Of a stretch of DNA of 21,907 bases, positions 1-15,615 are shown piece after piece; the stretch's first letter is position 1; every line of letters starts with the position of its first letter. The notes below the pieces were generated by a model that did not search any database, was not told where the DNA came from, and was given only the letters and a program-made list of their open reading frames with translations. This stretch comes from a virus. The stretch spans positions 1 through 21,907 of the IMG/VR virus record IMGVR_UViG_3300042518_000821. One strand, given 5' to 3'. A program made the translations under genes and the position numbers.

Positions 1-759
1 CGTCAGCCCCTCGCGCTCAATGATGACCAGCACGAACTTGTCATTGCGCTCCTCGATCCAAGTCCGCCGGCAGGCCGCAACCTCCTTCGGCGTCAGCCCG
101 AGGTAGCGGGTCAATAGGAACGCCCTTCGTATTCCGCCGCCGCGCTGCTTGCTCGCCGCATCCATCGCCTCGAGGACCGCCGGAGCGATGCGCTCAAAGG
201 TCACCGCCGGCGCCCGCATGCCGACCGAAGCGGCAGCAAACTTCTGGATGCAATCCGGCAGCGCAAAATCCTGCCACTCCAGCGGATGGCAAAAGACCGA
301 CCGCGCACCCGCCAGCGTCCCGCGGACGGTGTAGACACTGCCCTCAAACTCGCGCTGATACTTCGCCACATTAGCCGGCGAGACCGCCGTCAGCGGCAGC
401 GCCCGGAGCTGCTCATTGGTCCCGCCGAGAACCGCCCGCAGGAACCGCAGCAGCCGGTTGACATTCGCCTGCTTGGTCGGCAACTTGCTCACCTTCAAAT
501 AATGATCCACCGCCTCACCAACCGACCGCGCCGTCGTCCGCATGGCATGCGCCTGCAAGGCCACCAGCCCCTCGCGCCCCGAGTCGGTGAGAATGCCCTT
601 TGCCTTCTCCTTGGCCATAGTCAGGTCACGCAGCCCCGTCGAAATCCGCAGCCGCTTCCGAGTGTGCGGGTGACGGAAGTCCAACTGCCACCGCGGCGAG
701 TCAGTGGGCAGATACAGTTTGCCGGTCAGACCGGACGCCGTGACTTTGTGTGTGTCCAT
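1..759 (-). CDS. int: Tyrosine recombinase (phage integrase), C-terminus beyond the left edge
   Basis: Reading leftward from ATG at 757-759, the frame stays open for 253 codons to the edge of the window, so the 3' part is missing. The N-terminal ~75 residues look like an arm-binding/SAM-like region (basic, with HPHTRKRLRIS at 31-40). Residues ~77-170 resemble the core-binding helical domain (SVGEAVDHYL, NVNRLLRFLRAVL). The catalytic domain begins near residue 188. The sequence RAFLLTRYLGLTPKEVAA (212-229) matches box I of tyrosine recombinases, but the usual arginine of the G-L-R-x-x-E motif appears to be Thr223. The later His/Arg/Tyr residues are not in the window. The gene starts about 150 bp from a truncated tRNA-Thr that is the likely attachment core. 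It should catalyse site-specific integration and excision. The family call is well supported. Activity cannot be judged without the C-terminus. Confidence 0.85.
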   Translation of the reverse strand, partial: MDTHKVTASGLTGKLYLPTDSPRWQLDFRHPHTRKRLRISTGLRDLTMAKEKAKGILTDSGREGLVALQAHAMRTTARSVGEAVDHYLKVSKLPTKQANVNRLLRFLRAVLGGTNEQLRALPLTAVSPANVAKYQREFEGSVYTVRGTLAGARSVFCHPLEWQDFALPDCIQKFAAASVGMRAPAVTFERIAPAVLEAMDAASKQRGGGIRRAFLLTRYLGLTPKEVAACRRTWIEERNDKFVLVIIEREGLT

Positions 760-774: not shown

Positions 775-852
775 CTGCCAGACTCCGCTGTCAAATCACC
801 CTGCCAAAAGTTCGGCAAAACCCTGCCACTTTCTCTGCCAAAAAATAAGGCA
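775..852. repeat. CTGCCA repeats and TGCC-N8/9-GGCA inverted repeats upstream of the integrase
   Basis: CTGCCA occurs at 775, 801, 823 and 835 in the gap between the integrase start and the tRNA fragment. Two of these copies form imperfect 23-bp repeats, each with an internal inverted repeat: TGCC-N8-GGCA at 802-817 and TGCC-N9-GGCA at 836-852. Both are followed by AAAACC or AAACC. A third TGCC-N9-GGCA lies on the far side of the tRNA fragment. I infer integrase or excisionase arm-type sites, or an operator controlling the integrase. Confidence 0.5.
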
Positions 853-907
853 AACCATATGCAAACCGATACATTCAGTTTCAATTTCTACAGAGAAAAC
901 GACCTTC

Positions 908-948
908 GCCGAAGTAGCTCAGTTGGTAGAGCAGCGCATTCGTAATGC
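908..948 (+). tRNA. 5' half of tRNA-Thr(CGT), truncated; probable phage attachment core
   Basis: The 41 bases fold as a tRNA start: acceptor 5' strand GCCGAAG, TA, D-arm GCTC-AGTTGGTA-GAGC, then an anticodon arm with loop TTCGTAA, which reads anticodon CGT (Thr). The tRNA match stops directly after the inner anticodon-stem bases TGC. No variable loop, T-arm or acceptor 3' strand follows, so the gene is not functional as it stands. The anticodon arm contains the perfect palindrome GCATT-CGT-AATGC, the kind of symmetric core used by tyrosine recombinases. The integrase on one side and phage late genes on the other point to attP. An alternative is a prophage end next to a second integrated element. 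Most tRNA-type att sites keep the 3' half, so the 5' half is unusual. Confidence 0.7.
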
Positions 949-976
949 CCTGTCTTCCTCTGTCCGATTACCACTC

Positions 977-993
977 TGCCGCGTAGTCTGGCA
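977..993. repeat. TGCC-N9-GGCA inverted repeat on the right side of the attachment core
   Basis: The sequence CTCTGCC (974-980), then nine bases, then GGCA (990-993) repeats the arrangement CTCTGCC-N10-GGCA-type seen at 833-852 on the other side of the tRNA fragment. It sits between the attachment core and the stop codon of the lectin-like gene. Together the two sets would fit the two arms of an attP site. The repeat is short, so a chance match is possible. Confidence 0.35.
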
Positions 994-1000: not shown

Positions 1001-1954
1001 TCACGGCGTCCGCGCCAGCCGCAGCCCCATCCACGCATTCACCGCGCTCGGCGGCTGCTCCCCGCGCCGCGTCGAGCGCACCGCCAGCTCGCCCGCGATC
1101 GCATAGGCGCCCCCGCGGAATCTCCGCGGCGTCATCCCCACCGTGGCAATGTCGAAGCACCACTCAGCCACATTCCCGCTCATGTCATAGGTGCCCAGCT
1201 CATTGCCCAGCTTCGTGCCCACCCGTTGCGCCGCCCCCGCATTCACCGAATACCACGCCACCGCGCCCACCGTATTGCTCCCCGCGTAAGTGAATCCTCC
1301 GCTCGAGGTCGCCCCGCGCGCCGCCCATTCCCACTCCCGCTCCGTAGGCAACCGCCACCCATTCCCGCCCGCCACCGTCACCGCGTCCGAAGTGCCGCTG
1401 CGATACACCGCGCCGCCCACCAGATACACCGGCGCCAGCCCCTGCCACTCCGACAGCGCATTGCACCACTTCACCGCATCGTACCAGCTCACCGATCCCA
1501 CGGGAAAATCCTCACCCGCCCACGTCCCACGCCCCGCTAGGTCATAGCCCCGCGTCACCGCCCAATCCCGCACCCGCGCCCACAGCGCGCCCGTCACCTC
1601 ATAGCGCCCGATGGCAAACCCCTCCATCCACGCCGTGCCAAACCACGCCGACTGCGACCCGCCCGGCACGCTCACCGCATCGATCGTTGGCGCCGGCGTC
1701 GGGGTCGGTGACGGCGTAGGCGTAGCCACCGGCACCAGCTCGCCCTGCATCCGGTAAAAGCCCTGGTCGCCCTGCACCCGGCCCGCATTGATCCGCCCGC
1801 CGTGCAGCATCGCGCCCTCCACGGCCACCGGCACCCAAGGCCCGTGCAGCGAATCCGCCCGCTCCAGCGTGACGAAGACATCATGTTCCCCCGTCGCCCA
1901 GCCCGCCGCCGCCAGCATGACACTCAACAACCACGCCCCAGCAATCGTTCTCAT
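1001..1954 (-). CDS. Secreted SUMF1/FGE-like (formylglycine-generating-enzyme fold) protein; candidate moron
   Basis: I use ATG 1952-1954 (317 aa) because it begins a clear signal peptide (MRTIAGAWLLSVMLAAAGWA, residues 1-20). A longer in-frame start at 2215 would read through the terminator and into the preceding gene. Residues ~25-75 form a small beta module ending in GFYRMQ. A Pro/Thr/Ser linker follows (78-90). Residues ~92-315 are an FGE-sulfatase/SUMF1 domain: GRYEVTGALW (116-125), PVGSVSWYDAVKWCNALSEW (151-170), GWRLPTEREWEWAARGA (199-215), YDMSGNVAEWCFD (256-268), RGGAYA (280-285), MGLRLAR (309-315). The cysteines that catalyse formylglycine formation normally follow the RGG motif and are absent here. 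The domain is therefore more likely a binding (C-type-lectin-fold) module than an enzyme. The gene stands alone between a terminator and the attachment core. Hand-counted 60-base samples gave about 67-77% GC, against 55-60% in late-gene samples. It may alter the host surface or derive from the host. Confidence 0.8.
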   Translation of the reverse strand: MRTIAGAWLLSVMLAAAGWATGEHDVFVTLERADSLHGPWVPVAVEGAMLHGGRINAGRVQGDQGFYRMQGELVPVATPTPSPTPTPAPTIDAVSVPGGSQSAWFGTAWMEGFAIGRYEVTGALWARVRDWAVTRGYDLAGRGTWAGEDFPVGSVSWYDAVKWCNALSEWQGLAPVYLVGGAVYRSGTSDAVTVAGGNGWRLPTEREWEWAARGATSSGGFTYAGSNTVGAVAWYSVNAGAAQRVGTKLGNELGTYDMSGNVAEWCFDIATVGMTPRRFRGGAYAIAGELAVRSTRRGEQPPSAVNAWMGLRLARTP

Positions 1955-2051: not shown

Positions 2052-5000
2052 CTATTGTTCTTCCGTTGCCATGGCTGCGGCACCTGCGGCGGTAACGCCG
2101 TAGACCACCTTGCCGGTGAGGTCAAAGAACTCGTCGGTGATCTTACTGCGGCCACGGTTGCCGCTTGGACCAGTCTCAGCGCCGACCACTTTGATCGGCG
2201 GCATGGCCGATCCATTGTTCTTAAACGCCGCCGCCAGATTCTTTTTGATCAGCGCCGTTTCCTTGGCCGAGTTGCTGACGATGGTGATCCGGCCAACATT
2301 ACGCAAGTCGGGATTGAGCACATAAGCCTCGGTTCTGTTGCGCTGAATCGCAACCATAGGAGGAACCTTGTCAGAACTTGTAAACGATTGCGTCTTGCCC
2401 TGCGAAGCCGATCCTACAAGCTGGCTGACTGCAACCTTGCGAAGCTCGTTGCGCACGCCGGCAATGCCCTTCTCCTTGTAGATGCTACGCATGGACGACA
2501 GCGCGCTATCGGGTAGCGACACGGCAAGCTGGTGTGCCCGGATAAACGGCAGGCCGGCATTGCCAACCAGCAGGTCCGTTTTAAGCACCCGCTTGCCACT
2601 CGGCAGTGTATCGTAAATCTCTTTGGTCGGGTCGCCGAACGACCGCGCATTCTTGTCGCCCACGTTTGCTGATGCGTGGATGTCGGTCAGCCCGTTGCCT
2701 ACGCCATAGTGGTGGTGCGATGTCGCCACCATCGGCGTGTCCTTTTTCCACTCAAAAAACACGTTGTAGTTGCCTTGGGCGCCATACTTCTGGCCCTCAA
2801 CGACCGAGGCATACACTCGAGGCGGCGCGCTTGGGTCTTCGCGCAGGGACGAGCCAAAAGCCTTTTGGTCTGCGGTCTTCTCGCCGATCACGAACGACAT
2901 GCCTTGGTCAATCGTTGCCGCGCGCACGCCGCTTGCGCGGGCCTCGTCGATGTTTTGACCGGCAGCGACCTTGCCCTGCTGCTCCTTGTTGAGTTGCCGA
3001 GCCACCTGTTGCGCCTTCATCAGCGCCAAGTCGTTGTCACTATCGAAAGCCTCAAAGGCTGAGGTTAGCCAATTTGGGTTCACGCCATCGCGCGACTTGA
3101 CGGTCGGCCTTCCGGTTCCAGCCATGCGCGACAAGTCAGAGGTGCCCATACCGCTGATAACTTGCAGCGATCCTTTGCTGCGGTCTTTGAGTAGACGATA
3201 TACTTCTGCCGCCAGCGCTTTGGATTCGCTAACAGGAATACCCTTGTTAATTAACCGGCTGGACAGCGAATCGACTGCATCGGCCTGCAGGCGCTTGATT
3301 CGTTGCGGTGTCTCCTTGCTGTAATAAGCGGACAGCTCGTCAATGGCCGCAGATTGCTCTGGTGATATGCGACCGATGACTGGAGCATTCTCCGGCTGGT
3401 CGGCAATGGGGCGAAGCGTGCCGCCGGTTGCTTCCTGCGCTGCGGTAAAGTTCTCGGCCACCACATCCGGCATCGCCTGCCCACGCCTCTGCAACGCCCG
3501 CTGCAACTGCGGATCTTCCTCCCGCACGCCGCGGCGCTCCAGCTCTGCGCTGATCGCCTCGTTGCGCCGAAGCAGCTCGCGGGTCTGCGCAGCGCCGCCA
3601 CGCACCGGACGGCCCTCACGCATGCCCAGGGTGGACAGCCCAAGGTAGCCTTGGTTCTCCTCGTATTGGCGTAGGAGCTGGTCGGTGGTCATGCCTTCGA
3701 CGGCATCCGGCATCCCCTGCGCCTCCCGCGGGATCTGCTGGGGCATGCGCACCGGCAGGTCGGTGTCTAGGTCTGGTCGCGGAGCCGGGGCATCGGGCAT
3801 GAAGTTGCCGTTGGCCTTTTGGTAATCAAAGCTAAAGCCTTGGCGGCCGGTGCCAGCGATGTCATCAAAGGCGTCAAGGCGCAGCGTCTTGAGTGCGGAA
3901 CCCTTGCCGCCTAGTCCGGTCAGCGGGTTGGCCGCGCGGTTGGTTTTGGTGCCGATGCCAAGCAAGGCGTTGACGGCGTTGCGGCGGGTGTCGCCGATAC
4001 CGTCTGCTCCAGCGCGTCCGTTGGCATGATTGTCCAGCACGCGCCGCAGGTCGGCCTCGAGCTGCTTGAAATCCCAATTGATCTCGGCCAGAGAAGGATC
4101 GCGCTGGGCGATGGCCTTCATGGCGCGGTTGCGGAATTGCGTGAGATCGACAACGAAGGCGTTGATGTTGCCGTCCTTGGTCGCTTGCCACTCAACGAAC
4201 ATCACCTCGCGGTTAATGGCCTGGGCGTTGCGCAGGTCGCCCTGCTTGAAGACATCCTTCGACTTGCCCAGCGCAAAGTAGCGCACCTGCATGGTCTCGC
4301 CAGCGGTGCCGAGCGCTTCCATGCGGCGGGCGAGCTGCTTGAGAGGCGCCGGGAATCGCGTGAGGTCAAAGCGCGGCGGCAAGGTCTTGCCGGCCACAAT
4401 GCGCTGACCGTCGCGGAAACGGACGCCAAAGGTCGGGTCGTTCGGCTCCTTGGTCCCGCGGTCGATCATCTCGCGCACCTGCTGCTGGCGGGCGCGGATG
4501 AACTTGGCGCGGTCGGGGTCATTCTTTTTGTCCCTCAACTTGACGTTGCCGCTCTCGTCGATGAAGGCCAGCTCGTTCTCAAGTCGGCCGTTGCCGTAGT
4601 CGCGGAACGTGACGTTCGGGTTGTTCTTTAGATCATTCGGGTTGCCCGCGCGAGTCAGCGGGGCGCCAGACGGAGCCTCATGCGCCGGGTCGTTCAGCCA
4701 TTGCTGGTAGGCGCTGATGTATTGCCGGATGTTGCGGCGCATGACGGGGTCAGCGGCGAGGATTGGGTTGTCCTTAAAGAGTCTGTCTGGCGGCACCTGC
4801 AGCTTGCCGGTCTGCGGGTCGATGGGCGCGCCGGCCGCTGCCAGCGCCCTAGCATTGGCGCCTAGCACGTTCTCGGCAAAGCCGACCGGATTGAATCCCG
4901 CAGGGATGCCGCGGCGAATCTGCGCGTAGTCGATGCCCGCCGCGCGGTGCTCCTCAGCGAACACTTCATCGCGCAACCAATCCAGACGGTCGGAGTCGCC

Positions 5001-7268
5001 GCGAGCTAAGGCGCCCTCGGACAGTTCGTTGAGCACGCTGTCCACGTCGGTCTCGCTCACCTCGATCTTTTGCCCCGGAAACTCCCGCGCATTGCGGTTG
5101 GCTACAAAGGTGCGCGCATACTCGCGTGCCATGGAGTCCAGCTTTTCGGGACCGTAGCGCTGGTTGATGCTAGCGCGGGCCGAATTCTTCATCTCCGGCG
5201 ATATGGCCGCACTAGCCAGCAGGGCGTGTCCGTATTCATGCGGAGCCACATCGGTGCGGCGGGCGTCGGCGTTAAGGAAGAGGCGGGCGCGCTGACCTTC
5301 CGGTGCATGCAGGAAGTATCCCGCCGTGCCATTGCCACCTAGCGCGCTGACGTTGGCGTCGTAGTCAAGGCCGTTGAGCGGGATGAAATCGACCGAGTCG
5401 CGGTAAAATCCCTGCATGGCAGCCATGCCAGCGAGGTCTTCAAATTTGGTATTGCGCATCAGCGCATCGATGTCGCCGCCGGCCAGCTCTACGTCGGTCA
5501 ACATGCGCCCCGGCTCCTTCATGCTGTAGTAAACCTCGGCAGCGCGATCTGGCGCAGCGCGCCCTAGCTCGCCCGCATTGTTCTGCTGAATGTCCACCAG
5601 CATGCGACCGATGTCGCTCACCGCCGCATCGCGCCTGCGCCCGCGGGCACCGGCCACACGACCAACCAATCCGCCGCCCGCACCAAACAGCACACCGGCG
5701 CCGTAGATGCCCTCCGCGGTCTGCTCGTCACCCATTTCGCGGTAGGCTTCGGCAAAGGGGATGTTGACCAGCGGTCCAACTACTGCGCCACGCCCCACGG
5801 CACCGGCGGTGCGCGAAGCCTGCACGATCAGCGGGTTGGCTAGGCGCGCTGCCACTTGGCGCACGCGCGGGGAAAATGCTTCGTTCTTGGCGATCCGCGC
5901 CGGCGTTGACTCCAGCGGGACGAACTTGCTTGGGTTGACCAGCGCCTCGCGGATCTCCCGCGGCACCGCTGCGTTGTTGGCCACCGCCGCCCGCGCCACA
6001 TCGTCCATACCGTTGGTCGCATCAGCCGACTCGCGCATGATCATCTTGGCCGTGCCGGTTGCGCCCTCGACGCGGCGAAGCACGCCGGAACCCATCTTGT
6101 ACATCGGGTAGAGGCTCATCAGCGCCAGCGCCGTGTTGCGCGCCTCCTCCGGCGCTCCAGACATCACGGTCGCCACGGCACCGGCGCCACCGCCATAGGC
6201 TGCGGTTTTGGCGATCTTTGATTGCGTCTTACGGTCCAGTGCGCCAAAGGTCATCCGCTGCACGGCGCGCGTGAACACGTCCGCACCCTTGTCGATAATG
6301 TTGGCGCTGCCGCCAGCCGCAGCTTCCGCCGCACCCAGCGTTTTGGCGCTGAAAAGTTTTCCGAGACGCGCCGCGCCGGTCACCCTAGTTGCGGCAAATC
6401 CCGGCGCCAAGTTCTCCGGTGCCAGTAGGATTTCTGCAGGCAGTGTGAAGCTCTGGTTGGCTTTCACGCCCAGCAGCTTCTCGTCCATGATGTCGAGGTA
6501 GGTGCTGCGGATTGCGTTTTCCTTGGCGTAAAGCTGGTAGCGGTGCTCGTCGAGGTCGGCATCGGTCACCGGGGCCAGCGTCTTGCCCTCGCTGGCCATT
6601 TGTGTCAGCGGCGCCACACCGCCGAGCGGGGAGTAGACAAACTCGCCGGTCTCTTGCACGCGATACCGCGGCTTGCCCATCGCCAGATTGTTGAGCGCCA
6701 AGACCGTCTCGGTCGTGTTCAGCGCCGTGCCCTGGATGCCAGCCTTGGCCGAAGCCGGTGCCTGCAGCGCTGCTTCCACCATCGGCATGCGCTTGTAGTT
6801 GCCGTCAATGGCGCCGGTCTTGATGAGGACATTCTCCACGACTGCGGCAAGATTTCCGCCCTTGTCGAGGGCCATGTTCCAGTCAGCCACGCTCTGCAGG
6901 ACACCACCGCCAATAGCCTTGGCCATCTGCCACTTGCCCGGTCGCTTGCCCTGCTCGGTCAGCTTGACCTCTAGCTCGTCCGCCTCCTTGAGCTGCTCTG
7001 GCGACAATAGGATGCGCGCATCATACTTGGCGTCCACTGTCCGCTGATCCACCTCTTCGGGCGTCAGCTCTGGCGCGCCATACAGCGCATCGCGCACGTC
7101 CAGTTCTTCTGGCGTGTATTCGGCCTTGGTCTCCTGCGGGCCTTCGTAATAACTCATGGCCGCGCCCACGCCGCCTGAGATCACGTCATAGACCGGACGC
7201 GGCGCCTGCTGGGCCTCCAGCGCGTCCAACTCTTCCGGCGTATATTCCTCTTTAGCGGCCGGCGGCAT
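2052..7268 (-). CDS. Giant internal virion (ejection) protein with zinc-metallopeptidase motif
   Basis: This 1738 aa protein is the last gene of the late operon and overlaps the 355 aa gene upstream by 17 bp. Size and position match the large ejected proteins of podoviruses (T7 gp16-like role), although I see no clear sequence similarity to them. The N-terminus carries three copies of a YTPEELD-like motif (residues 7-18, 49-60, 66-77) and a related LLSPEQL (87-93). Alanine/glycine-rich, weakly hydrophobic stretches lie near 345-375 and 517-545 and could help cross membranes. APHEYGHALLAS (675-686) is an HExxH zincin motif, and EVFAEEH (768-774) could supply the third zinc ligand. Residues ~900-1090 are a charged mixed region. 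The last ~250 residues (including TSHHHYGVGNG, 1516-1526) form a separate globular-looking part. Peptidoglycan or protein cleavage during DNA entry is the inferred role. A polyvalent protein ejected to act in the host is the alternative. Confidence 0.75.
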   Translation of the reverse strand: MPPAAKEEYTPEELDALEAQQAPRPVYDVISGGVGAAMSYYEGPQETKAEYTPEELDVRDALYGAPELTPEEVDQRTVDAKYDARILLSPEQLKEADELEVKLTEQGKRPGKWQMAKAIGGGVLQSVADWNMALDKGGNLAAVVENVLIKTGAIDGNYKRMPMVEAALQAPASAKAGIQGTALNTTETVLALNNLAMGKPRYRVQETGEFVYSPLGGVAPLTQMASEGKTLAPVTDADLDEHRYQLYAKENAIRSTYLDIMDEKLLGVKANQSFTLPAEILLAPENLAPGFAATRVTGAARLGKLFSAKTLGAAEAAAGGSANIIDKGADVFTRAVQRMTFGALDRKTQSKIAKTAAYGGGAGAVATVMSGAPEEARNTALALMSLYPMYKMGSGVLRRVEGATGTAKMIMRESADATNGMDDVARAAVANNAAVPREIREALVNPSKFVPLESTPARIAKNEAFSPRVRQVAARLANPLIVQASRTAGAVGRGAVVGPLVNIPFAEAYREMGDEQTAEGIYGAGVLFGAGGGLVGRVAGARGRRRDAAVSDIGRMLVDIQQNNAGELGRAAPDRAAEVYYSMKEPGRMLTDVELAGGDIDALMRNTKFEDLAGMAAMQGFYRDSVDFIPLNGLDYDANVSALGGNGTAGYFLHAPEGQRARLFLNADARRTDVAPHEYGHALLASAAISPEMKNSARASINQRYGPEKLDSMAREYARTFVANRNAREFPGQKIEVSETDVDSVLNELSEGALARGDSDRLDWLRDEVFAEEHRAAGIDYAQIRRGIPAGFNPVGFAENVLGANARALAAAGAPIDPQTGKLQVPPDRLFKDNPILAADPVMRRNIRQYISAYQQWLNDPAHEAPSGAPLTRAGNPNDLKNNPNVTFRDYGNGRLENELAFIDESGNVKLRDKKNDPDRAKFIRARQQQVREMIDRGTKEPNDPTFGVRFRDGQRIVAGKTLPPRFDLTRFPAPLKQLARRMEALGTAGETMQVRYFALGKSKDVFKQGDLRNAQAINREVMFVEWQATKDGNINAFVVDLTQFRNRAMKAIAQRDPSLAEINWDFKQLEADLRRVLDNHANGRAGADGIGDTRRNAVNALLGIGTKTNRAANPLTGLGGKGSALKTLRLDAFDDIAGTGRQGFSFDYQKANGNFMPDAPAPRPDLDTDLPVRMPQQIPREAQGMPDAVEGMTTDQLLRQYEENQGYLGLSTLGMREGRPVRGGAAQTRELLRRNEAISAELERRGVREEDPQLQRALQRRGQAMPDVVAENFTAAQEATGGTLRPIADQPENAPVIGRISPEQSAAIDELSAYYSKETPQRIKRLQADAVDSLSSRLINKGIPVSESKALAAEVYRLLKDRSKGSLQVISGMGTSDLSRMAGTGRPTVKSRDGVNPNWLTSAFEAFDSDNDLALMKAQQVARQLNKEQQGKVAAGQNIDEARASGVRAATIDQGMSFVIGEKTADQKAFGSSLREDPSAPPRVYASVVEGQKYGAQGNYNVFFEWKKDTPMVATSHHHYGVGNGLTDIHASANVGDKNARSFGDPTKEIYDTLPSGKRVLKTDLLVGNAGLPFIRAHQLAVSLPDSALSSMRSIYKEKGIAGVRNELRKVAVSQLVGSASQGKTQSFTSSDKVPPMVAIQRNRTEAYVLNPDLRNVGRITIVSNSAKETALIKKNLAAAFKNNGSAMPPIKVVGAETGPSGNRGRSKITDEFFDLTGKVVYGVTAAGAAAMATEEQ

Positions 7269-8319
7269 TCGATTGCTGTTGCTGCTGCGGGGTAAAACGG
7301 TAGACCCATTTGCCCTGCTGGTTTTGAGTAAGCGTCATCGTTTGGCCGGTCACTGGATCAATGCGGGTTGGTTTGAGGTTGGCGGGAGGTTGGGCCGATT
7401 GCGGCGCGGTGGTGGATGCCGCGGGTGCGGCGCCCTGCGCTGGCGATTGCTGTGGCAGACCCTGAGAAAGAATCTCGCGCGTGCGACCGAAATACTCGCG
7501 CCACACCTGCGGTGGATCGTCGCGCCGTGGGAACATCTCTTCGAGGAACTTGCGCTCGTCATTCGACAGCGGCTTGACGTATTTGGCCGCCTCCAGCACC
7601 TCGGTCTTGGTCGTGAAACTCAGCTCAAACCGCTTGGCGTAGCGATCCTGGTTGTTCCACTTGTCCCATTCGTTGGCCACAAAGCTGCCCGCCGCTGGGC
7701 CGACCAGGCTGTCTAGGTCGCTGTCGTCCGCGATGTATTTATCCATGATGCCGAGGACGCTTTGCACGCGGGCTGCCTGTTGCGCCTGCTCGCGCTCTTT
7801 GGCGGGGTCCGCTGCCTTGCTCGCGCTCTGCATCGCCTGCCGATCCTGATTCTGCCGGAACTCATCAGCCAACCGCGCGGCCTCCGAAGCCGGCACCTTC
7901 TTCATGTTCTTGATATTTTCGTAGACGTAGCGCGACTGGGGATCGAGGGAGTTGTAAATGTTGCGCGCCTCGTCGGTTTGGCCTGCGGCATGGAGCTGCG
8001 CGATTTGTTGGAACGGCTCAAAGTTAAAATGCACGCCCTTGGACGGAACGCTCATCGTGGCGCGGCGCACCTCGGCCGGCGTCGGGTCAACCATGGCGTC
8101 GTCCGGCGGGCTGAACTCGTCCAGCGGCACCGGATTGCCCTCGGCATCGGTCACGGGCGGCAACACATCGTCTCCCGATTCTGCCATTGCGTTGTTTCTA
8201 CTAACGTCACTTGGGTTCATTCTTGCGATCTCCTCATCCATTGTTATCGGCGGCTCCACCACCATGCCATCGGGCGGACGGTCTAGTGGGAAGCGCTCTT
8301 CAGCCCTGCGTCGGCTCAT
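7252..8319 (-). CDS. Probable internal virion/ejection protein (355 aa), function unknown
   Basis: No family is recognised. The N-terminal ~90 residues are acidic and proline-rich (PPVTDAEGNPVPLDEFSPPD, 54-73). The middle (~95-270) is helical and charged, with QAQQAARVQSVLGIMDKYIA near 178-197. The C-terminus is a Gln/Pro/Ala linker ending in GKWVYRFTPQQQQQ. The start overlaps the previous stop as ATGA, and the end overlaps the giant ejection protein by 17 bp, so expression is probably coupled. Its place between the 156 aa and 1738 aa genes suggests a component of the DNA-ejection apparatus. A scaffold or chaperone for the giant protein is also possible. Confidence 0.7.
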   Translation of the reverse strand: MSRRRAEERFPLDRPPDGMVVEPPITMDEEIARMNPSDVSRNNAMAESGDDVLPPVTDAEGNPVPLDEFSPPDDAMVDPTPAEVRRATMSVPSKGVHFNFEPFQQIAQLHAAGQTDEARNIYNSLDPQSRYVYENIKNMKKVPASEAARLADEFRQNQDRQAMQSASKAADPAKEREQAQQAARVQSVLGIMDKYIADDSDLDSLVGPAAGSFVANEWDKWNNQDRYAKRFELSFTTKTEVLEAAKYVKPLSNDERKFLEEMFPRRDDPPQVWREYFGRTREILSQGLPQQSPAQGAAPAASTTAPQSAQPPANLKPTRIDPVTGQTMTLTQNQQGKWVYRFTPQQQQQSNAAGR

Positions 8320-8786
8320 CGATTTCCGAAGGTAGGCAACGATGTGCCGTCAAAACTCGGACCCTCTTCGGCGCGGGTGTTGGCGTTGTTAATGTTGTTG
8401 CGGGTAATGTCGCGCTGAGTTTGGACAATAGGCGCCTGCTCCATCCGCTGCCTGCCAAGCTGCGCATTGGCCATGGAGGGCATCCACGATCCGAAGTTGT
8501 CGAGCATCATGCCTGCATCGTAGTCATCCATGTCGGTGAAGGAGCTGAGTTGGTTCTCGTCAAAGCCAAAGGTCTCTCCGGCCATGCCCATGAACTTTTT
8601 GAAGTTCTTACCCTTGGCTTTGGTGCCCTGCATCTGCCCATAAGCCCCAGCCAAACTAACCAAAGCCCCGCCGATATCATTAGCCAGTTGGACCTTCGCC
8701 TGCGCATTCATCTGCGCCGAGTTGACAATTCCCTGTCCGCGGATCGCTCCGCTCTCATCATTTACGGTTGGGTTGTAAGCAAACAT
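8316..8786 (-). CDS. Probable small internal virion protein (156 aa)
   Basis: The protein is Gln/Asn/Met-rich and begins MFAYNPTVNDESGAIRGQGI, followed by an alanine-rich helix that could be amphipathic (QLANDIGGALVSLAGAYGQM, 33-52) and an acidic Met-rich segment near 80-105. There is no signal peptide. It has one of the clearest ribosome-binding sites in the window (AAGGAG, 9 bases before ATG), which suggests high expression, as expected for a structural component. It overlaps the 355 aa gene by 4 bp. The ejection-protein role is inferred from position and composition. I cannot name the family. Confidence 0.65.
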   Translation of the reverse strand: MFAYNPTVNDESGAIRGQGIVNSAQMNAQAKVQLANDIGGALVSLAGAYGQMQGTKAKGKNFKKFMGMAGETFGFDENQLSSFTDMDDYDAGMMLDNFGSWMPSMANAQLGRQRMEQAPIVQTQRDITRNNINNANTRAEEGPSFDGTSLPTFGNR

Positions 8787-8795
8787 AGTTTTGTT

Positions 8796-8801
8796 CTCCT
8801 T
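8796..8801 (-). promoter_or_regulatory. Strong ribosome-binding site for the 156 aa protein
   Basis: AAGGAG lies 9 bases before the ATG at 8784-8786. It is in the 13-base gap after the cysteine-cluster gene and restarts translation of the ejection-protein block after the inserted gene pair. Confidence 0.7.
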
Positions 8802-9084
8802 ATTTGATTCCTGCCGCCGCCCTTGCCTCTAGGCACAGGGTTGATCCGGCCACAAACGCGCGGCAGGCGTTTGGTCGGTTGTTGTAAATTGAGCAAGAGA
8901 CGCCGCATCCGACTTCGCCGGTCAGCGCCACGCATCTGCTGTTCGTTGTCTTCATTAGTGGGTAGTCATCGCGCAGCATCCATTGCGGGATGCCGACAGC
9001 GTCAGATCGGTCTCGTCGTAAGATTGGCCAGCTCCACTTGTGACTGCAGCATGCGCCACACCGTTGACAGTCGAATCGCTCCAT
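8800..9084 (-). CDS. YkgJ-like cysteine-cluster (putative Zn/Fe-chelating) protein
   Basis: The 94 aa start at ATG 9082-9084 (MERFDCQRCGACC) is chosen because family members begin just before the first cysteine cluster. The frame itself is open to a start at 9216. Cysteines at 6, 9, 12 and 13 (CxxCxxCC), 51, 60, 64, 74 and 84, together with CSIYNNRPNACRAFVAGS (64-81), are the hallmark of the YkgJ/CxxCxxCC family, thought to bind zinc or iron. With this start the gene overlaps the PAPS-reductase-like gene by 130 bp in another frame, which is long for a phage. No clear ribosome-binding site lies at the usual distance; a CGGAGG-like sequence is about 19 bases upstream. It probably works with the upstream enzyme, perhaps supplying or sensing metal. 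Confidence 0.8.
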   Translation of the reverse strand: MERFDCQRCGACCSHKWSWPILRRDRSDAVGIPQWMLRDDYPLMKTTNSRCVALTGEVGCGVSCSIYNNRPNACRAFVAGSTLCLEARAAAGIK

Positions 9085-9911
9085 GTCGGGCGGAAGCCCT
9101 GCGCCTCCGATTGCAGGTCGATGTAGGGTGCTAGATGGCTGATGTTGTTCGTCTCGCATTGATTCTTTGGGCACCAGACGGTGCCGCCGAGGTGGCGGTT
9201 CACGCAGTTCCAGCACACCGGATAGTAGTCGCTGTTTGCGCTCTTATCCTTCCGGTGCCGCCACACGCCGTCCGACTTCTCGTAGCGGGTGTCGTCATTC
9301 GGCACGCCTTCGGCTTCAAGGTAGTTCCAGATGTCGGCATCCGACCAGTGGCGCATCGGGTAGAGCTGAGTAGGAATGCCCGCCTGCACCAAAACGTCCT
9401 GCGCGAGCGGCACTTGGCCCTTGATCAGGTCCACGTCGGCGCTTTTTTGGCCGTGGAAGGCGGCATCCCACGGGAAGTTGAATGTGCCGGTTGGGCGCTT
9501 CAGAGCTTCCAGCCCGCACAGATAGCGACCGCTGGCCAGCTCCTCCGGCTGCGGTTCTTCGGTGCCGAGGCAGAGCGCCAGCGACTTGGTGCCGATCTGG
9601 TAGAGCTTGATGAAGTCAAAGCGCGGAATGCCGGTCTCAATGTCGTAGCCGTCTGTCAGCGCATAGCCGAGAGGCGCGTAGTCATACATCTCCAAGTCCC
9701 ACGCCTCGGCCAGCATGTCGCTGTAAGCATAGCGATGCCGGAAGCGCGGCTCGCGCCACTGGATCACCGGCGGCTTGGCGCCCACCTTGTGGCGGATGAG
9801 GTGCAGCATCGCTGTAGAATCCTTGCCGCCGCTCCAAAGCACGACAGGGTTGGCGCTGGCGTCCAGCCAACGCTCCACCTTGCGGCACGTTTCTTTGACC
9901 AGTTGATCCAT
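8955..9911 (-). CDS. PAPS-reductase-like PP-loop ATPase (phosphoadenosine phosphosulfate reductase family)
   Basis: Within 318 aa, VVLWSGGKDSTAMLHL (23-38) contains the PP-loop SGGKDS that binds ATP/PAPS-type nucleotides. LYPMRHWSDADIWNYLEAEG (183-202) is the family's conserved substrate-side motif. CWNC (233-236) with Cys247 and Cys252 could form a Zn or Fe-S site. The family includes CysH sulfonucleotide reductases, CysD and the DndC sulfur-transfer enzymes, and is common in phages with uncertain substrates. The ATG is 3 bases after the stop of the 278 aa gene, without a clear ribosome-binding site, so translation is probably coupled. Residues from ~276 overlap the cysteine-cluster gene and look unlike the rest of the protein. 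A role in sulfur or nucleotide/tRNA modification is inferred only. Confidence 0.85.
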   Translation of the reverse strand: MDQLVKETCRKVERWLDASANPVVLWSGGKDSTAMLHLIRHKVGAKPPVIQWREPRFRHRYAYSDMLAEAWDLEMYDYAPLGYALTDGYDIETGIPRFDFIKLYQIGTKSLALCLGTEEPQPEELASGRYLCGLEALKRPTGTFNFPWDAAFHGQKSADVDLIKGQVPLAQDVLVQAGIPTQLYPMRHWSDADIWNYLEAEGVPNDDTRYEKSDGVWRHRKDKSANSDYYPVCWNCVNRHLGGTVWCPKNQCETNNISHLAPYIDLQSEAQGFRPTWSDSTVNGVAHAAVTSGAGQSYDETDLTLSASRNGCCAMTTH

Positions 9912-9914
9912 AAG

Positions 9915-10751
9915 CTAGATGGCGATGACGCCGATACCAATAGCTGCACCGGCACCAGCACCGATCATGCCCATGGTCGCCGAGTTGTTGGCCGCGCCGG
10001 CCTGCATTGAGGCGGATTGCAGCGCCGCGTTGTTGTTCATTACCGAGTTGTAGCGGCTGGCTGCCATGTTGGTGTTGAAGCTCTCGACATTGCCCGCCTG
10101 TTGCAGCGAACCACCGAAGATGCTGTTCACCTGTCCGGTTGTGGTGGAAAGCGTCTGCGAGCCAAGTCCAAACGCCGGTCCAATAGCCTGCCGAAACGGA
10201 TCAAGGTCTCCGTAGGCACCAGCCAATCCAACCCGCCGCTGCCTGCGGGCCAAGTCCATCTGATTGACGCTGGCCGCAAAGCCACGCCGAGCATCCTGCC
10301 GTGCGGTGCCGTAGGCATCCCGGTTGAGAATCTCAGCCGCGCTGCCGCCCATCGAGGTGCCAAGACCGCGAGCCGCAAACGCCGCGCGGGCCGACTGCGA
10401 GGCTTCGCGCATCTGCTCTGGTGAGAGCGAGCGACCGAGGGCCAGCTCCGACTCCGCATCCTGCATGAGCCTAGCCTCAATGGCGTTCGGCGTGCTCGCC
10501 GCCGTCAGCTCTTCGCCGACCACGCCGCGTGTGCGGGCTAAGTATTCGTTGTCGAGCTTACCAGCGAGTTGGTCAGCGGTCCCAAGCTGCATCTTGATAT
10601 ACTCAGGATACAGTCTTTTGATCGACTCTTCTTGCGCCAAGGTTTGAGCGTTGGCCACGCGAATCGACGCCTCGGCCATTTTGTCGTAGTCAATCGGCGC
10701 CGGTGCCGGTGGCACTGGTGCTGGTGTAAATGATGGTCCTCCACCTCCCAT
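9915..10751 (-). CDS. Internal virion (ejection) protein candidate, 278 aa
   Basis: A proline-rich start (PAPVPPAPAPIDYDKMAEAS, 10-29) leads into a long Ala/Gln/Arg-rich helical region (~25-185, for example RGVVGEELTAAS and SPEQMREASQSARAAFAARG). An Asn/Ser/Gln-rich part follows. The C-terminal hydrophobic Gly/Ala segment MGMIGAGAGAAIGIGVIAI (260-278) could insert in a membrane. This arrangement is typical of small podoviral ejection proteins (T7 gp14-like role). The start is supported by AGGAGG 8 bases upstream. It is the first member of the ejection block, which continues after two inserted accessory genes. Confidence 0.7.
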   Translation of the reverse strand: MGGGGPSFTPAPVPPAPAPIDYDKMAEASIRVANAQTLAQEESIKRLYPEYIKMQLGTADQLAGKLDNEYLARTRGVVGEELTAASTPNAIEARLMQDAESELALGRSLSPEQMREASQSARAAFAARGLGTSMGGSAAEILNRDAYGTARQDARRGFAASVNQMDLARRQRRVGLAGAYGDLDPFRQAIGPAFGLGSQTLSTTTGQVNSIFGGSLQQAGNVESFNTNMAASRYNSVMNNNAALQSASMQAGAANNSATMGMIGAGAGAAIGIGVIAI

Positions 10752-10752
10752 A

Positions 10753-11103
10753 TTATTGTCCTCCTGTTTTGCTAATTAGTTTCTCCCAATAGTAGACGCG
10801 CGGCTCCAAGCTCCCCCTGCGGCACCAAGCCACATAGGTCTGCGGATGCGGCGCCACGCGCAGACACTCCCGAACAGGGTTTGCGCCAGCAGCGCCAGCA
10901 GCCAGAGTGACGAACCAGCAGTTAGGCTCCCCGAGTTCAAAGTTTTGCTCCTCCGCGTTCCACCGCACAGCGCGAGCCAGCATGAAGCATTCCGGCGAGT
11001 TCCACACATAGCCCGCCGACAAATGCTCGCCGACTGCTTCCCAGAAGTCCTGCTCCGAGTGGTTGTCCCACCAGTGTTTTGCGCGTTGCCATGGGGTCAT
11101 CAC
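10753..11103 (-). CDS. Hypothetical late protein, 116 aa, tryptophan-rich
   Basis: I do not recognise a family. The sequence is rich in Trp (WQRAKHWWDNHSEQDFWEAV near the start) and has Cys at 39, 62, 80 and 94. It has no signal peptide or membrane segment and is predicted to be a small soluble protein. Its start overlaps the stop of the C1q-like fiber gene (ATGA, 4 bp), and it is followed within one base by the 278 aa gene. It is therefore co-translated with virion genes. It could be a fiber chaperone or a small virion component. Confidence 0.6.
   Translation of the reverse strand: MMTPWQRAKHWWDNHSEQDFWEAVGEHLSAGYVWNSPECFMLARAVRWNAEEQNFELGEPNCWFVTLAAGAAGANPVRECLRVAPHPQTYVAWCRRGSLEPRVYYWEKLISKTGGQ
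10760..10765 (-). promoter_or_regulatory. Ribosome-binding site of the 278 aa virion protein
   Basis: A full AGGAGG stands 8 bases before the ATG at 10749-10751. It lies inside the last codons of the preceding 116 aa gene, whose stop and this start form TAATATG. Confidence 0.75.
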
Positions 11104-11828
11104 GCTGCTCTGGCCAGATACCCAGAGAAAGAACTTGAAATACTACGATTGCCTCCAGCGCCGTGGTAGGCTCGCAAATCGACGTAGTCGCTGACGCTCA
11201 TATAAACAAGCCCGCTAACCGTGTTGCGTATAATCGAGGCGTCGATATGCGGACCTTGCAGCGCCAAATTGCCATTCAAGTAGATTCCGAGAACAAAATT
11301 GCTGGCAGTGCCAGAAACCTGACTCGCTGCTTCAAATTGATAGTATCCAGCGATTGTGGCCGTGAAAACATTGCTGGCAAAATTGGAGTTTGTGTCTACC
11401 GCTTCCGTCTGTAGAAGCACCTGCGTCCACGTTGCGGTTGCAATCGCTTGGCTTGTAGACGATGCCGCCATAAATAGCGGGCCGCTGCTTGCGACGTTTG
11501 ACGCAAGTTTCGCCTGAGTGATTGCCCCGCTGGCCACCATGCCAGATGTCACCTTGCTTGCCCCAATCGCCGTAACGCCGGAGCTTGTCACCGTGACATC
11601 TCCGCTCAGAGCTGTGGCGGTTGGCACATTGCTTGCGTTTCCAAGCAGCACCTGACCAGCCGCGATAATGGCAAGTTTGCTGTGGGCAATGCCAGCAGAT
11701 GCGTTGATCTTTGCGTTCGTCACTTCATTGTCAGCGACAACCACAGTCGGCGCGGCGGCGCTGTTGAGTTTCGCGGGGGTGACGGTCTCGCCGCTCGTCC
11801 ATGTGTATCCTTGAGTCACTGTTGCCAT
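11100..11828 (-). CDS. Tail fiber-like protein with C-terminal C1q-like domain
   Basis: The N-terminal half (residues ~1-112) carries repeated fiber motifs with pattern AxxxAKL (VTPAKLN, GIAHSKLA, GAITQAKLA) and TSSGVTAIGASKV. Residues ~114-240 resemble the C1q/TNF-like jelly roll: AGYYQFEAASQVSG (160-173), LGIYLNGNL (180-188), SGLVYMSVSDYVDLRAY (205-221) and SFSGYLAR at the end. Such domains form trimeric, receptor-binding tips. The protein is likely a host-recognition appendage of the virion. The gene lies between the tail-tube gene and the ejection block and follows a ~115 bp gap. AAAGGAAAAC before the ATG is a plausible ribosome-binding site. Confidence 0.75.
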   Translation of the reverse strand: MATVTQGYTWTSGETVTPAKLNSAAAPTVVVADNEVTNAKINASAGIAHSKLAIIAAGQVLLGNASNVPTATALSGDVTVTSSGVTAIGASKVTSGMVASGAITQAKLASNVASSGPLFMAASSTSQAIATATWTQVLLQTEAVDTNSNFASNVFTATIAGYYQFEAASQVSGTASNFVLGIYLNGNLALQGPHIDASIIRNTVSGLVYMSVSDYVDLRAYHGAGGNRSISSSFSGYLARAA

Positions 11829-11943
11829 GATTGTTTTCCTTTGTTGCTAGGCTGCGGTTTGGCTTCGCTTCGCTTCAGCCTGTCTCGCTGCGCTCGGCTC
11901 AGTTGCCATGAGTAGTTGAGAGTTGAGGGTTTAGAGTTGAGGG
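11829..11943. other. Gap of ~115 bp between the tail-tube and C1q-fiber genes
   Basis: It holds a heptamer repeat tract next to the tail-tube stop (11915-11946), a GC-rich stretch with three GCTTC units (11862-11876), and a 20-codon minus-strand reading frame (11847-11909) with no ribosome-binding site. That frame starts ATGGCAAC, like the real fiber gene. No promoter is obvious. Confidence 0.5.
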
Positions 11944-11946
11944 TTA
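11915..11946 (-). repeat. Degenerate heptamer repeat over the stop of the tail-tube gene
   Basis: Read on the coding strand from the stop codon, the units are AACCCTC, AACTCTA, AACCCTC, AACTCTC, then AACT. The two exact 13-bp copies are spaced 14 bases apart (11919-11931 and 11933-11945). The tract begins in the TAA stop. Confidence 0.75.
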
Positions 11947-13968
11947 GGCGGCGTTGCGGGTCTCAGTCGGCGGGTTGCTCTGTCCTGCTGCTTCGATGCT
12001 CACGTTGCGGATCTCGGGCCGGTCCGCCGTGGTTAGAAATTCCAGTTCGCAGTAGTGTGCTTTTTGCCTGATCGGCTGCTTCAAAGTGTAGTCCTCGCTC
12101 AAGCCAGACGTATTGGCTTGACCCGGCACCAGCGTGATCTCCGCATCTGGATTGGTCAGTCGCGCCCTGACAGTGATGCCAGCGGTGTCAGGCAAGACCA
12201 CATCCGAGAGCGAACGACGGAACCGCTGGGTGTGCATGCTGGCCATGCCGTAGCGGCGGGTGACAATGCGACCGGCGACCGTCCCGACATAGCCAGTGAT
12301 GGAAGGATCGGGCGCGTTGTCGCCGGCCTGCTCCTCGTTGAGCATCATAATAGTGCCTGCCTGCGAGGTTGCCATGACGCGGCGACGGCTTCCCTCCGTG
12401 ACGACCAAAAGGTCATCAATGCCGAAGCCGTAATCGTCGCGGGTTTCCCACTGGTCGTTGAGGGCCGACCAAATAAACAGCCAAGCACGAGGGTTGGCGC
12501 CCGCTGTCTGCGGAACGGAGAGCAGGTAACGGTTGTCGTGCCAGACGCCGACTGCGTTCTCGGAGGCTACCGGATCTAACCGTTCAAACTGGTCGGCAAT
12601 CGGATCACTGAGCGGCTTGGTGTCGCCGCGAAGTTGCAGATCAAGGCGCGCGTCGAGACGGTAGACGCCGGCGTCAGACAGAAAGAAAACATACTGGCCA
12701 GCCACCGCAATCGTCTTGCGGGCCAAGCAGCCGACCTCGTCAGTCAGTAACTCCAGCTTGGACAGAGGCGTGTCGATACTGAAGTCCGAGCCGTCTGTGC
12801 TGCTGAACTGCGCCACGGTAGCCAGCCAGATCGACTTGCGCATGAAGACCAAGAACTTGCCCTCCACCCACGGCTGCACGGCGACCAAGTAGTCGTTGCT
12901 CCCTTGGTTGGCGCGGAAGGATTGGAAGAAAGAGTCATAGACTTCGGGGTCCAGCCAGTCAGAGAGAAGCACGCCGTCGCGTCCGCTTGGCACCACCAAG
13001 CGATTGTTGGCGTAGACTGCCCACGGGACCGAGGGCAGCGATTTGAATGTTGCGCCCACGGCCGGCACGCCGCCCGGGCTGCGGACAAAATCGGTTGCTG
13101 GGTCGAGATCCCAGTAGAGAGGCGCCTTCACACGGCGCACGGTGCGGCCGGTGGTGGTCGTGTCCTGCGCGGTGCCAGACGGCACGGTGATCGTGAAGGA
13201 ATCCGTGGCGACCGTGGCAATGTCGTATTCTACGCCGTCAAAGGCAGCGACATTGCTCCCCTCAATCCGCACCCGCATGTCGGCGCTGTAGCCGTGGCCC
13301 GTTAGATTGACCGTCGCCGTGGTGCCCGACACCGTAATGCCGCCGGTCGTAATTCCGCTCGTCCGGTATTCCTCGCGCAGAGTGCTGGCTTCTCGGAAGA
13401 GATACAGGCGGTTGAATGCCTGCACCATCGAAACCTTGTCGCTCTGCTCAATCGTTTCGCCGGAAGGATACGTCAGCGTGGACGGCAAGTTTGTTGAAAT
13501 GATTTCCTCGTCGCCGTCCGTTACCAGCGGCTCGTCGGGGTTGACGCCATCGGTGACTAAGATCGTTCCGCTGCCCCACGTTGCGCTAAATCCGCTGCCG
13601 TCATCAAAGATTTGCAGATACGCCTCGGCGGGCGCGGCGAGCACCACCAGCTCAAAGCTGTTCACGGCATCTGGCGAGCGGACCACCGCCGAAGCGAACA
13701 CGCCGCCGGTATAGATGCTGCGCACCACCGGATCTCCGGTGCCTTCGCTTACGGCCAAGTTAAACGGCACGGTGAGCGGCGCATTGGCTGGCGCCACGCC
13801 GCTGGCCATCCGCTTGGCGCCCCTGCGCGTAGTTGCTACGCCGCGATCCAAACGCATATTCTCCGAAACTTGCAGCACACCGGCTGGCAAGTTGATCGGA
13901 TTTAAGCGCGATGCGTAGCCGATAAAACCGGCGTCACCATCGCGTTGCACTGGACTTTCAAGTGGCAT
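11944..13968 (-). CDS. Tail tube/nozzle candidate (T7 gp12-like tail tubular protein B role)
   Basis: The 674 aa protein begins with NPINLPAGVLQVSENMRLDR (23-42) and GVATTRRGAKR, a pattern like the N-terminus of podoviral tail tubes that replaces non-conserved proteins with a positively charged arm. Residues ~210-272 form an inserted Ig-like beta module (VNLTGHGYSADMRVRIEGSN). The rest has beta-propeller-like repeats such as WAVYANNRLVVPSGRDGVLL, YVFFLSDAGVYRLD, NRYLLSVPQ and VMATSQAGTIMMLNE. Size and composition fit the nozzle that closes the short tail. The gene is flanked on both sides by fiber genes, consistent with tail assembly. It starts 7 bases after the 225 aa gene's stop. No enzymatic motif is evident. 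Confidence 0.7.
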   Translation of the reverse strand: MPLESPVQRDGDAGFIGYASRLNPINLPAGVLQVSENMRLDRGVATTRRGAKRMASGVAPANAPLTVPFNLAVSEGTGDPVVRSIYTGGVFASAVVRSPDAVNSFELVVLAAPAEAYLQIFDDGSGFSATWGSGTILVTDGVNPDEPLVTDGDEEIISTNLPSTLTYPSGETIEQSDKVSMVQAFNRLYLFREASTLREEYRTSGITTGGITVSGTTATVNLTGHGYSADMRVRIEGSNVAAFDGVEYDIATVATDSFTITVPSGTAQDTTTTGRTVRRVKAPLYWDLDPATDFVRSPGGVPAVGATFKSLPSVPWAVYANNRLVVPSGRDGVLLSDWLDPEVYDSFFQSFRANQGSNDYLVAVQPWVEGKFLVFMRKSIWLATVAQFSSTDGSDFSIDTPLSKLELLTDEVGCLARKTIAVAGQYVFFLSDAGVYRLDARLDLQLRGDTKPLSDPIADQFERLDPVASENAVGVWHDNRYLLSVPQTAGANPRAWLFIWSALNDQWETRDDYGFGIDDLLVVTEGSRRRVMATSQAGTIMMLNEEQAGDNAPDPSITGYVGTVAGRIVTRRYGMASMHTQRFRRSLSDVVLPDTAGITVRARLTNPDAEITLVPGQANTSGLSEDYTLKQPIRQKAHYCELEFLTTADRPEIRNVSIEAAGQSNPPTETRNAA

Positions 13969-13975
13969 TTAGTGG

Positions 13976-14653
13976 CTAACCCTCATACATGATGTTGACC
14001 GCGCCTGCGTCAAAGGTGTCGGAGGCGTCTGAGCGGGTAACGCGCACACGATCAAGCGCCCCCGAAAGCGCAACATTTCCTGCGGCAAACATTTGTGCCC
14101 CGCTGTTGCTATAGACGCCTATGCCTTGCCCCAGCCAAGTATTGTAACCCACCAAATTAAGGACAAATGTTCCAGTAACGATATTTGCCGCCGCGCCCAT
14201 GTAGACGACAAACCCAGCGCTGGAAGATATTGCTCCAGCGGTTGTGGTTGTGCCCTGTAGGAATGTGGACAAACTAGCATATCCGCTTGTCGTGAGGCTG
14301 CCGGAGCCTATCTGAATCAACATGTGGGCCGTTCCGGCGAATGAGACCGCATCCAGCATGACCGTAATGCGCTTGACCCACGAAGGGATTGCGGTGAAGT
14401 CGATAAATGTTCCGCTGGTGGTGGCTTGGGCGGTGGCGAGCGTGAGCGGCTGAGAAAGCTTTGCCGGGGTGACGGCGCCATCCGCCAGCTTGCTACCAGC
14501 GATGGCCGCATCGCTGGCAATACTGGCGTTTTTGATTCCGGCAAGAACTTCAAGTTTGCTTGCTCGCTTGGTAATGCCGCTTTGTTGAACAATAAGTTCG
14601 TCAGAATCGGCAACGGATGTTGCGTCTGGTAGTTGTGAGATGGTTTTGGCCAT
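13976..14653 (-). CDS. Tail fiber/appendage protein, 225 aa
   Basis: MAKTISQLPDATSVADSDEL at the start is the common N-terminal module of phage fibers that attaches to the virion. It is followed by fiber repeats (ASIASDAAIAGSKLADGAVT, 43-62, then AKL). The C-terminal ~150 residues (from ATTSGTFIDFTAIPSWVKRI) are beta-rich and resemble the carboxy domain found at the end of many phage fibers and collar fibers. The N-terminal repeats are related to those in the C1q-tipped fiber at 11100-11828, so the two flank the tail-tube gene as related appendages. The start is ATG 14651-14653. The leader is a pyrimidine-rich repeat with no good ribosome-binding site. Confidence 0.7.
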   Translation of the reverse strand: MAKTISQLPDATSVADSDELIVQQSGITKRASKLEVLAGIKNASIASDAAIAGSKLADGAVTPAKLSQPLTLATAQATTSGTFIDFTAIPSWVKRITVMLDAVSFAGTAHMLIQIGSGSLTTSGYASLSTFLQGTTTTAGAISSSAGFVVYMGAAANIVTGTFVLNLVGYNTWLGQGIGVYSNSGAQMFAAGNVALSGALDRVRVTRSDASDTFDAGAVNIMYEG

Positions 14654-14662
14654 AGGATTGGA

Positions 14663-14698
14663 GGTGTGAAAGTGGGAAGGTAAAAGGTGGGAAGGTTA
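14663..14698 (-). repeat. Pyrimidine-rich 7-8 nt repeats after the amidase stop
   Basis: On the coding strand, ACCTT-type units recur every 7 to 8 bases from the TAA stop. The exact 10-bp copies are at 14672-14681 and 14687-14696, 15 bases apart. The tract fills the gap to the next gene. Confidence 0.7.
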
Positions 14699-15280: not shown

Positions 15281-15284
15281 GCGC

Positions 15285-15437
15285 TTACTTTGCGTGGCCT
15301 TTGGGCGGCGGGTTGACGGTGACGGTGGCCTGTTGCTTCACGAAGTCATAGCCGACCGTCACGCAGCCAGCCGCAGCGACAGCCCAGCTCACGGCGAGGA
15401 TCGCAACTGCAATGAGTTTTGTGACGCGGGCGAGCAT
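15285..15437 (-). CDS. Small lipoprotein (50 aa), candidate outer-membrane spanin (Rz1-like role)
   Basis: ATG 15435-15437 opens a 50 aa frame: a short basic start (MLARVTK), a hydrophobic segment LIAVAILAVSWAVAA, then lipobox AAGC with Cys25. The mature part is only 26 residues and ends in a proline-rich tail (NPPPKGHAK). Lipid attachment at Cys25 and a proline-rich mature peptide between holin-like genes and the endolysin match the o-spanin role in lysis of Gram-negative hosts. No matching i-spanin was found. A non-lytic lipoprotein is possible. It lies 4 bases after the 57 aa gene and 4 bases before the amidase. Confidence 0.7.
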   Translation of the reverse strand: MLARVTKLIAVAILAVSWAVAAAGCVTVGYDFVKQQATVTVNPPPKGHAK

Positions 15438-15441
15438 GGAG

Positions 15442-15615
15442 TCAGAGGCGGGCGTTGTTGTCTTTGGCGACGATCAATCCCCAACCGGCGAGCAGGCTCG
15501 CGGAGATGAGGCCGAGGTCGGGGATTGTGCCGCTGGCCAGAAATTCGCGTCCGGCCGTGGACAAGCTGGCGATGATAGTGAGTGCTCCGAGTAGGTTCGT
15601 TTTCCAGTTTCTCAT
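15442..15615 (-). CDS. Small phage membrane protein (57 aa) of the lysis cassette
   Basis: ATG 15613-15615 opens 57 codons ending with TGA at 15442. The protein has two hydrophobic segments (LLGALTIIASLSTAG, 8-22, and LGLISASLLAGWGLIVAK, 34-51) separated by a short loop. It starts RNWKTN and ends AKDNNARL, a shape I recognise from many small phage proteins encoded beside holins. The start overlaps the holin-like gene by 4 bp (ATGA). It probably acts with the holin, as a second holin or an antiholin. Confidence 0.75.
   Translation of the reverse strand: MRNWKTNLLGALTIIASLSTAGREFLASGTIPDLGLISASLLAGWGLIVAKDNNARL

Follow-up and report, generated by a model that had tools for sequence, protein, structure and literature searches.

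The stretch of DNA analyzed here (the window) makes up an entire IMG/VR record of 21,907 b. The original prediction had raised the question of a circular or terminally redundant contig; the record was linear, and no terminal repeat or redundancy was found along its length. From the left, the window encoded a tyrosine integrase, an interval of ~150 bp separating the integrase start codon (759) from nucleotide 1 of a tRNA fragment (908), an FGE-sulfatase-domain protein and a block of phage genes (Table 1), with the integrase and phage genes all on the minus strand. The integrase gene, which adjoins the tRNA 5' half, was cut by the contig end; a full-length relative (L003, 6001-7107) matched PF00589 and phrog_1/phrog_216. 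The tRNA fragment had been predicted to lie between an integrase and late genes. The integrase flank held, albeit truncated, but the neighbor on the other side was the FGE-sulfatase-domain gene and not a recognizable late gene.

Table 1. Features of the window, in window coordinates
Feature	Position	Strand	Remarks
Tyrosine integrase gene	1..759	-	253 of ~368 aa; 3' end lost at contig end
P arm: four YTGCCA copies at 775, 801, 823, 835	775..840		Putative integrase arm-type sites
Left arm of 13-nt inverted repeat, TGCCAGACTCCGC	776..788		
TACAGAGAAA box, with CAGAGA	889..898		Inverted partner at 955-963
tRNA-Thr(CGT) 5' half (nt 1-41), candidate attP core	908..948	+	Exact match to intact host genes
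Perfect 13-nt palindrome GCATTCGTAATGC	936..948	+	Read from sequence; anticodon loop 939-945
Right (P') arm: CTCTGTCC at 958, TGGCA-type box 981-993	958..993		Constant offsets from half in Thr- and Phe-type relatives
FGE-sulfatase (SUMF1-like) domain protein	1001..1954	-	Neighbor of candidate attP; at this place in close relatives only
Phage gene block (amidase endolysin, large 1738-aa protein, others)	2052..21801	-	Beyond candidate attP

The FGE-sulfatase-domain protein, which directly adjoins the candidate attP and is encoded on the plus strand at 4635-5759 in L003, had an N-terminal signal-like stretch, and its gene was missing from the corresponding place in L006. A possible role for this protein is as lysogenic-conversion cargo. 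The 1738-aa protein (2052-7268, minus strand) had no Pfam or PHROG match and contained an HEYGH motif (HExxH-type), as found in metallopeptidases; similar long genes were situated near attP in L003 and L006. A PAPS reductase-domain protein, a domain that is a frequent phage auxiliary gene, was encoded at 8955-9911 (minus strand). L003 (11030-12303) and L006 (9891-11053) each contained two long overlapping open reading frames in different frames (418/423 aa and 381/386 aa, respectively), one resembling a cytosine-5 DNA methyltransferase, whereas the other may be an artefact of coding bias.

The tRNA-Thr 5' half and its host match

Positions 908-948 read GCCGAAGTAGCTCAGTTGGTAGAGCAGCGCATTCGTAATGC, and as neither ARAGORN nor Rfam detected a tRNA in the window, this sequence represents a tRNA fragment. 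We scanned ~85,000 species genomes for the exact 41-mer, which was found in only three, all of them Verrucomicrobiota MAGs (titled Chthoniobacter flavus, uncultured Verrucomicrobia and Chthoniobacterales bacterium). Each match lay within an intact tRNA-Thr(CGT) gene, at nt 1-41, and the three genes shared a common gene neighborhood. Among 2.9 million IMG/VR contigs, the 38-nt core of the 41-mer occurred in one other, a close relative of the window phage. A chance match to tRNA-Thr is excluded, and the 41 nt tie freshwater Verrucomicrobiota to a group of uncultured phages. The tRNA-Thr(CGT) genes at L030-L032, an unoccupied integration site, were flanked by an Lrp/AsnC-like regulator gene on one side and polyamine-transport-like genes on the other, and their promoter-like sequence (TTGCCA-18-TATTTT) was strongly conserved.

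Identity between host and phage was confined to nt 1-41, after which (...AATGC) the host continued with GCGGGTCAGG and the phage with CCTGTCTTCC. The phage copy begins at nt 1 and ends at nt 41 in the anticodon arm, lacking the T arm and tRNA 3' end, unlike a canonical 3'-half attP. The original prediction had the match stop within the anticodon arm and described that arm as a perfect palindrome, both of which agreed with our results, and the search of host genomes that it proposed did find an intact tRNA-Thr(CGT) sharing these positions; the match also takes in the tRNA 5' end. In terms of a full tRNA, three of five anticodon stem pairs were left in the phage (TGCCC versus TGCGC in the host). 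By analogy with SSV1- and lambda-type integrases, the anticodon loop (939-945) is the probable region of strand exchange (overlap region) (PMC8371274).

Related loci and conserved arms

Five contigs encoded integrases 71-100% identical to that of the window, and an alignment search recovered 17 loci in IMG/VR whose integrases were related to it at 65-100% identity. All 17 had a tRNA 5' half between the integrase start and the next gene, surrounded by a P arm and a right arm. The half varied by clade, with tRNA-Thr(CGT) in the window, L002, L003 and L004/L005; tRNA-Phe(GAA) in L017-L022, L027 and L029; and tRNA-Met(CAT) in L023-L026 and L028. The arms on both sides were conserved throughout, indicating that the half was exchanged among three tRNAs within one integrase family while the arms were kept.

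YTGCCA and/or TCTGGCA boxes were present to the left of the half in every relative checked, across all three classes. In the window, a 13-nt inverted repeat (776-788 and 981-993, 92% complementary) coincided with the outer limits of the original prediction (775-993). In all three tRNA classes, CAGAGA preceded tRNA nt 1 at a near-fixed distance (-17 to -19), and a CTGTGTC-like box followed the half at 12-13 bp; the Thr and Phe classes shared a TGGC box at +43. The conserved TACAGAGA box could serve integrase binding or form part of a promoter. It looked like a -10 element, but it has an inverted partner across the core and so may be a site for the integrase.

ARAGORN found no tRNA in attP alone, yet joining the phage halves to host 3' halves in silico yielded complete tRNA-Thr, tRNA-Phe and tRNA-Met. 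The exact Phe half was found in eight of 2.9 million viral contigs, all belonging to the integrase family of the window and none with a complete tRNA at the locus. The same half was present as one copy per genome in candidate hosts G006, G007 and G008, and also in near relatives; matches read out in host genomes were complete tRNA-Phe sequences. Elongator tRNA-Met was likewise found once in the candidate hosts. The Met halves of L023-L026 had a GCAC/GTGC D stem, compared to GCTC/GAGC in the listed Verrucomicrobiota tRNA-Met genes, with pairing kept, and this double change was absent from 387 Verrucomicrobiota genomes. A paired change of this kind fits selection that acts on the half within a tRNA, with an unsampled host as a possible alternative, and the change may be a single event.

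Proposed integration and the promoter of the restored tRNA

We consider it very likely that the element serves as attP in a temperate phage infecting freshwater Verrucomicrobiota, and that upon integration the start of an intact tRNA comes from the phage-borne half and not from the host. The tyrosine integrase would bind the repeated arm-type boxes on either side of a core identical to the host tRNA 5' half, and strands would be exchanged around the anticodon loop with the matching host tRNA gene. At one junction, host promoter, host 5' half and phage right arm would be joined, leaving a displaced, non-functional fragment (predicted as host upstream sequence, half and CCTGTCTTCCTCTGTCC). At the other, integrase gene, P arm, phage-borne 5' half and host 3' half would form a complete tRNA gene divergent from the integrase (predicted as P arm, tRNA-Thr 5' half and GCGGGTCAGGGGTTCGAG), and transcription of this tRNA would have to begin in phage DNA.

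Nearly all elements that integrate at tRNA genes keep the host promoter in charge, whereas here a restored 5' half would part the tRNA from its native promoter, and the phage would have to drive its expression. From this geometry, and from the single-copy Phe and Met halves in candidate hosts, we infer that the phage supplies the promoter of the restored tRNA. We compared scores from a simple sigma70 matrix, with approximate weights, to those of shuffled sequence. In candidate hosts, the native promoter of tRNA-Thr (again TTGCCA-18-TATTTT) and those of several Phe and Met genes scored clearly above shuffles. Sigma70-type promoters in the phage P arms, including that of the window, did not score above shuffles except in the Met-type L024; a missing match is weak evidence. 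Among integrated islands (see below), promoter-like sequences were found on the element side in G157 and G220 (TTGCCA-16-TAGTAT/TATTAT), and none was recognizable on the element side of the tRNA-Lys islands. Alternatively, the tRNA sequence might be restored but transcribed little or not at all, a loss tolerated since another isoacceptor can read the codon. The P arm without a consensus promoter would agree with this, and for tRNA-Thr(CGT) wobble by tRNA-Thr(TGT) could suffice. We nevertheless consider it unlikely, as tRNA-Phe and elongator tRNA-Met, both present once in candidate hosts, are targeted with an identical layout, and as good promoters lie upstream of the half or restored tRNA in phage P-SSP7 and the G157/G220 islands.

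A very improbable alternative is tRNA-dependent lysogeny, a strategy known in actinobacteriophages (Fionnbharth and others; PMC10865867), in which the host tRNA gene is also affected and the phage compensates, but where the core is ~10 bp, the junction does not restore the tRNA, and a complete replacement tRNA is needed elsewhere in the phage. The window lacks part of the phage genome, where such a tRNA might lie. However, as the 41-bp shared core of the window extends to tRNA nt 1, the tRNA is rebuilt, and neither the window nor the loci of its family (up to 15 kb) contained a complete tRNA.

We give hardly any weight to the possibility that the window holds attL or attR from an integrated prophage, with chromosomal DNA on one flank. 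The FGE-sulfatase gene directly adjoins the half, and genes of this type are common in Verrucomicrobiota chromosomes, but host tRNA flanks shared nothing with either side of the phage half, and both flanks recurred around other tRNA halves in independent phage contigs. Since the arms are conserved around swapped halves, neither flank is chromosomal; the attL/attR reading is refuted, and interpretation of 908-948 as attP, with phage DNA on both flanks, is supported by these sequence comparisons. The original prediction had preferred attP because an integrase lies on one side and phage genes on the other, and the conserved arms on either side speak against the chromosomal flank that it had named as a refuting observation. 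It is scarcely credible that transduction or capture of a host tRNA left the half behind as a remnant without any part in integration: tRNA fragments do occur in phages, but this one adjoins an integrase gene, is flanked by arm repeats and has the same layout with three tRNAs at 17 loci.

With attP as the preferred reading, we tentatively suggest that integrase, arms and tRNA promoter might constitute a modular cassette that swaps 5' halves between isotypes and puts single-copy host tRNAs (Phe, Met) under phage-controlled transcription in the lysogen. As the element would have to supply the tRNA promoter, and tRNA-Phe and tRNA-Met are probably single-copy, prophage and host tRNA expression would be linked, and if the cassette reading is true the prophage gains a hold on host translation. 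The use of three tRNAs by the same integrase lineage also offers a natural series for studying how integrases change target.

Comparison with known systems and integrated islands

The original prediction called a phage that restores the 5' half unusual. It is uncommon, but less unprecedented than implied: T7-like cyanophages have four 39-bp attP motifs, all matching the first half of tRNA-Leu, and integration of P-SSP7 and S-TIP37 at tRNA-Leu was shown experimentally, with both int and attP required (PMC8776855). We read the P-SSP7 half directly at 5860-5898. As in the window, attP of these two phages exactly copies the 5' half of a host tRNA and has its end in the anticodon loop. However, it is downstream of the int 3' end, whereas that of the window is upstream of the int start; the T7-like cyanophages all use tRNA-Leu, compared to Thr, Phe and Met in the window family; and in P-SSP7 a clear promoter-like sequence (TTGTTA-16-TATAAT) precedes the half by 19 bp, where the window P arm has no recognizable sigma70-type promoter. 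P-SSP7 and S-TIP37 are also lytic T7-like phages of cyanobacteria without stable lysogens, whereas the window phage is proposed to be temperate. No recognizable tRNA half was found near int in HTVC019P.

In the archaeal plasmid pTN3, the core common to attP and attB is a 41-bp tRNA-Leu 5' half (PMC5495485), and pTN3-like integrases use the tRNA 5' half, with the rebuilt tRNA expressed from the integrase promoter, an arrangement rarely encountered in bacteria (PMC8371274). The window resembles pTN3 in the 41-bp 5' half and in a rebuilt tRNA parted from its original promoter (PMC5495485, PMC8371274). In pTN3, however, attP lies within int and integration splits the gene (a suicidal integrase of the pTN3/SSV type), whereas the window attP lies outside the integrase frame. 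Phages with a canonical 3'-half attP, such as cyanophage PSS2 and mycobacteriophage Boilgate, likewise have a tyrosine integrase and rebuild the tRNA at one junction, but they carry the 3' half (that of PSS2, read directly, contains the T arm and 3' end) and the host keeps the promoter, in contrast to the 5' half of the window. Searches that presume a 3' fragment would miss 5'-half elements. A 5'-half attP is thus already known, though rare, from some marine T7-like cyanophages and pTN3; what is new is a family in Verrucomicrobiota (a new host phylum) with a divergently oriented integrase gene and three tRNA targets.

An integrase-alignment scan of genome contigs found no relative, and an integrase HMM run over three candidate hosts, 384 genomes of the class and 197 relatives of G007 gave distant matches only; neither search revealed an integrated member of the window family. 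The original prediction had proposed to look for attL/attR in related prophages. None was found for the family itself, but islands in G323 and G157 showed the layout expected after integration, with an intact tRNA on the integrase side and a displaced 5' half on the opposite end. The integrases of such islands were related only distantly to that of the window (E about 1e-4 to 1e-33 in a genome search). A 45-kb Verrucomicrobiota island in G323 (contig C58) had an intact tRNA-Lys(CTT) at 43682-43754, divergent from an integrase (profile E about 1e-18), and a perfect copy of tRNA-Lys nt 1-38 in the same orientation at 89100-89137. In the element-free relative G222, the upstream host block was 2.8 kb from the tRNA, compared to ~64 kb in G323, and the downstream gene was adjacent in both, placing the G323 island on the 5' side of the tRNA. 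An integrase remnant lay beside the displaced half in G323, and two elements are probably stacked there. In G157, a restored tRNA-Ser was situated beside an integrase gene on contig 4, and the displaced half was on contig 10 behind promoter-like sequence.

Three other candidates were dropped: a pair of G501 tRNA-Lys contigs as occupied and empty alleles (the upstream regions partly matched), G102 loci beside tRNA-Thr genes (no displaced half), and the G530/L137 provirus as an att pair (a single copy of the half in the record). In L137 (IMGVR_UViG_2508501067_000007, 34705 b), a different tyrosine-recombinase-like gene was arranged divergently to an intact tRNA-Met(CAT); this provirus is possibly another 5'-side integrator, its far end not being found in the record. 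At tRNA-Lys sites in several Verrucomicrobiota genomes (L072-L082), integrase genes or remnants were situated directly upstream of tRNA-Lys (G323, G454, G412 and G467), which suggests that elements in this group frequently integrate on the 5' side of tRNA-Lys.
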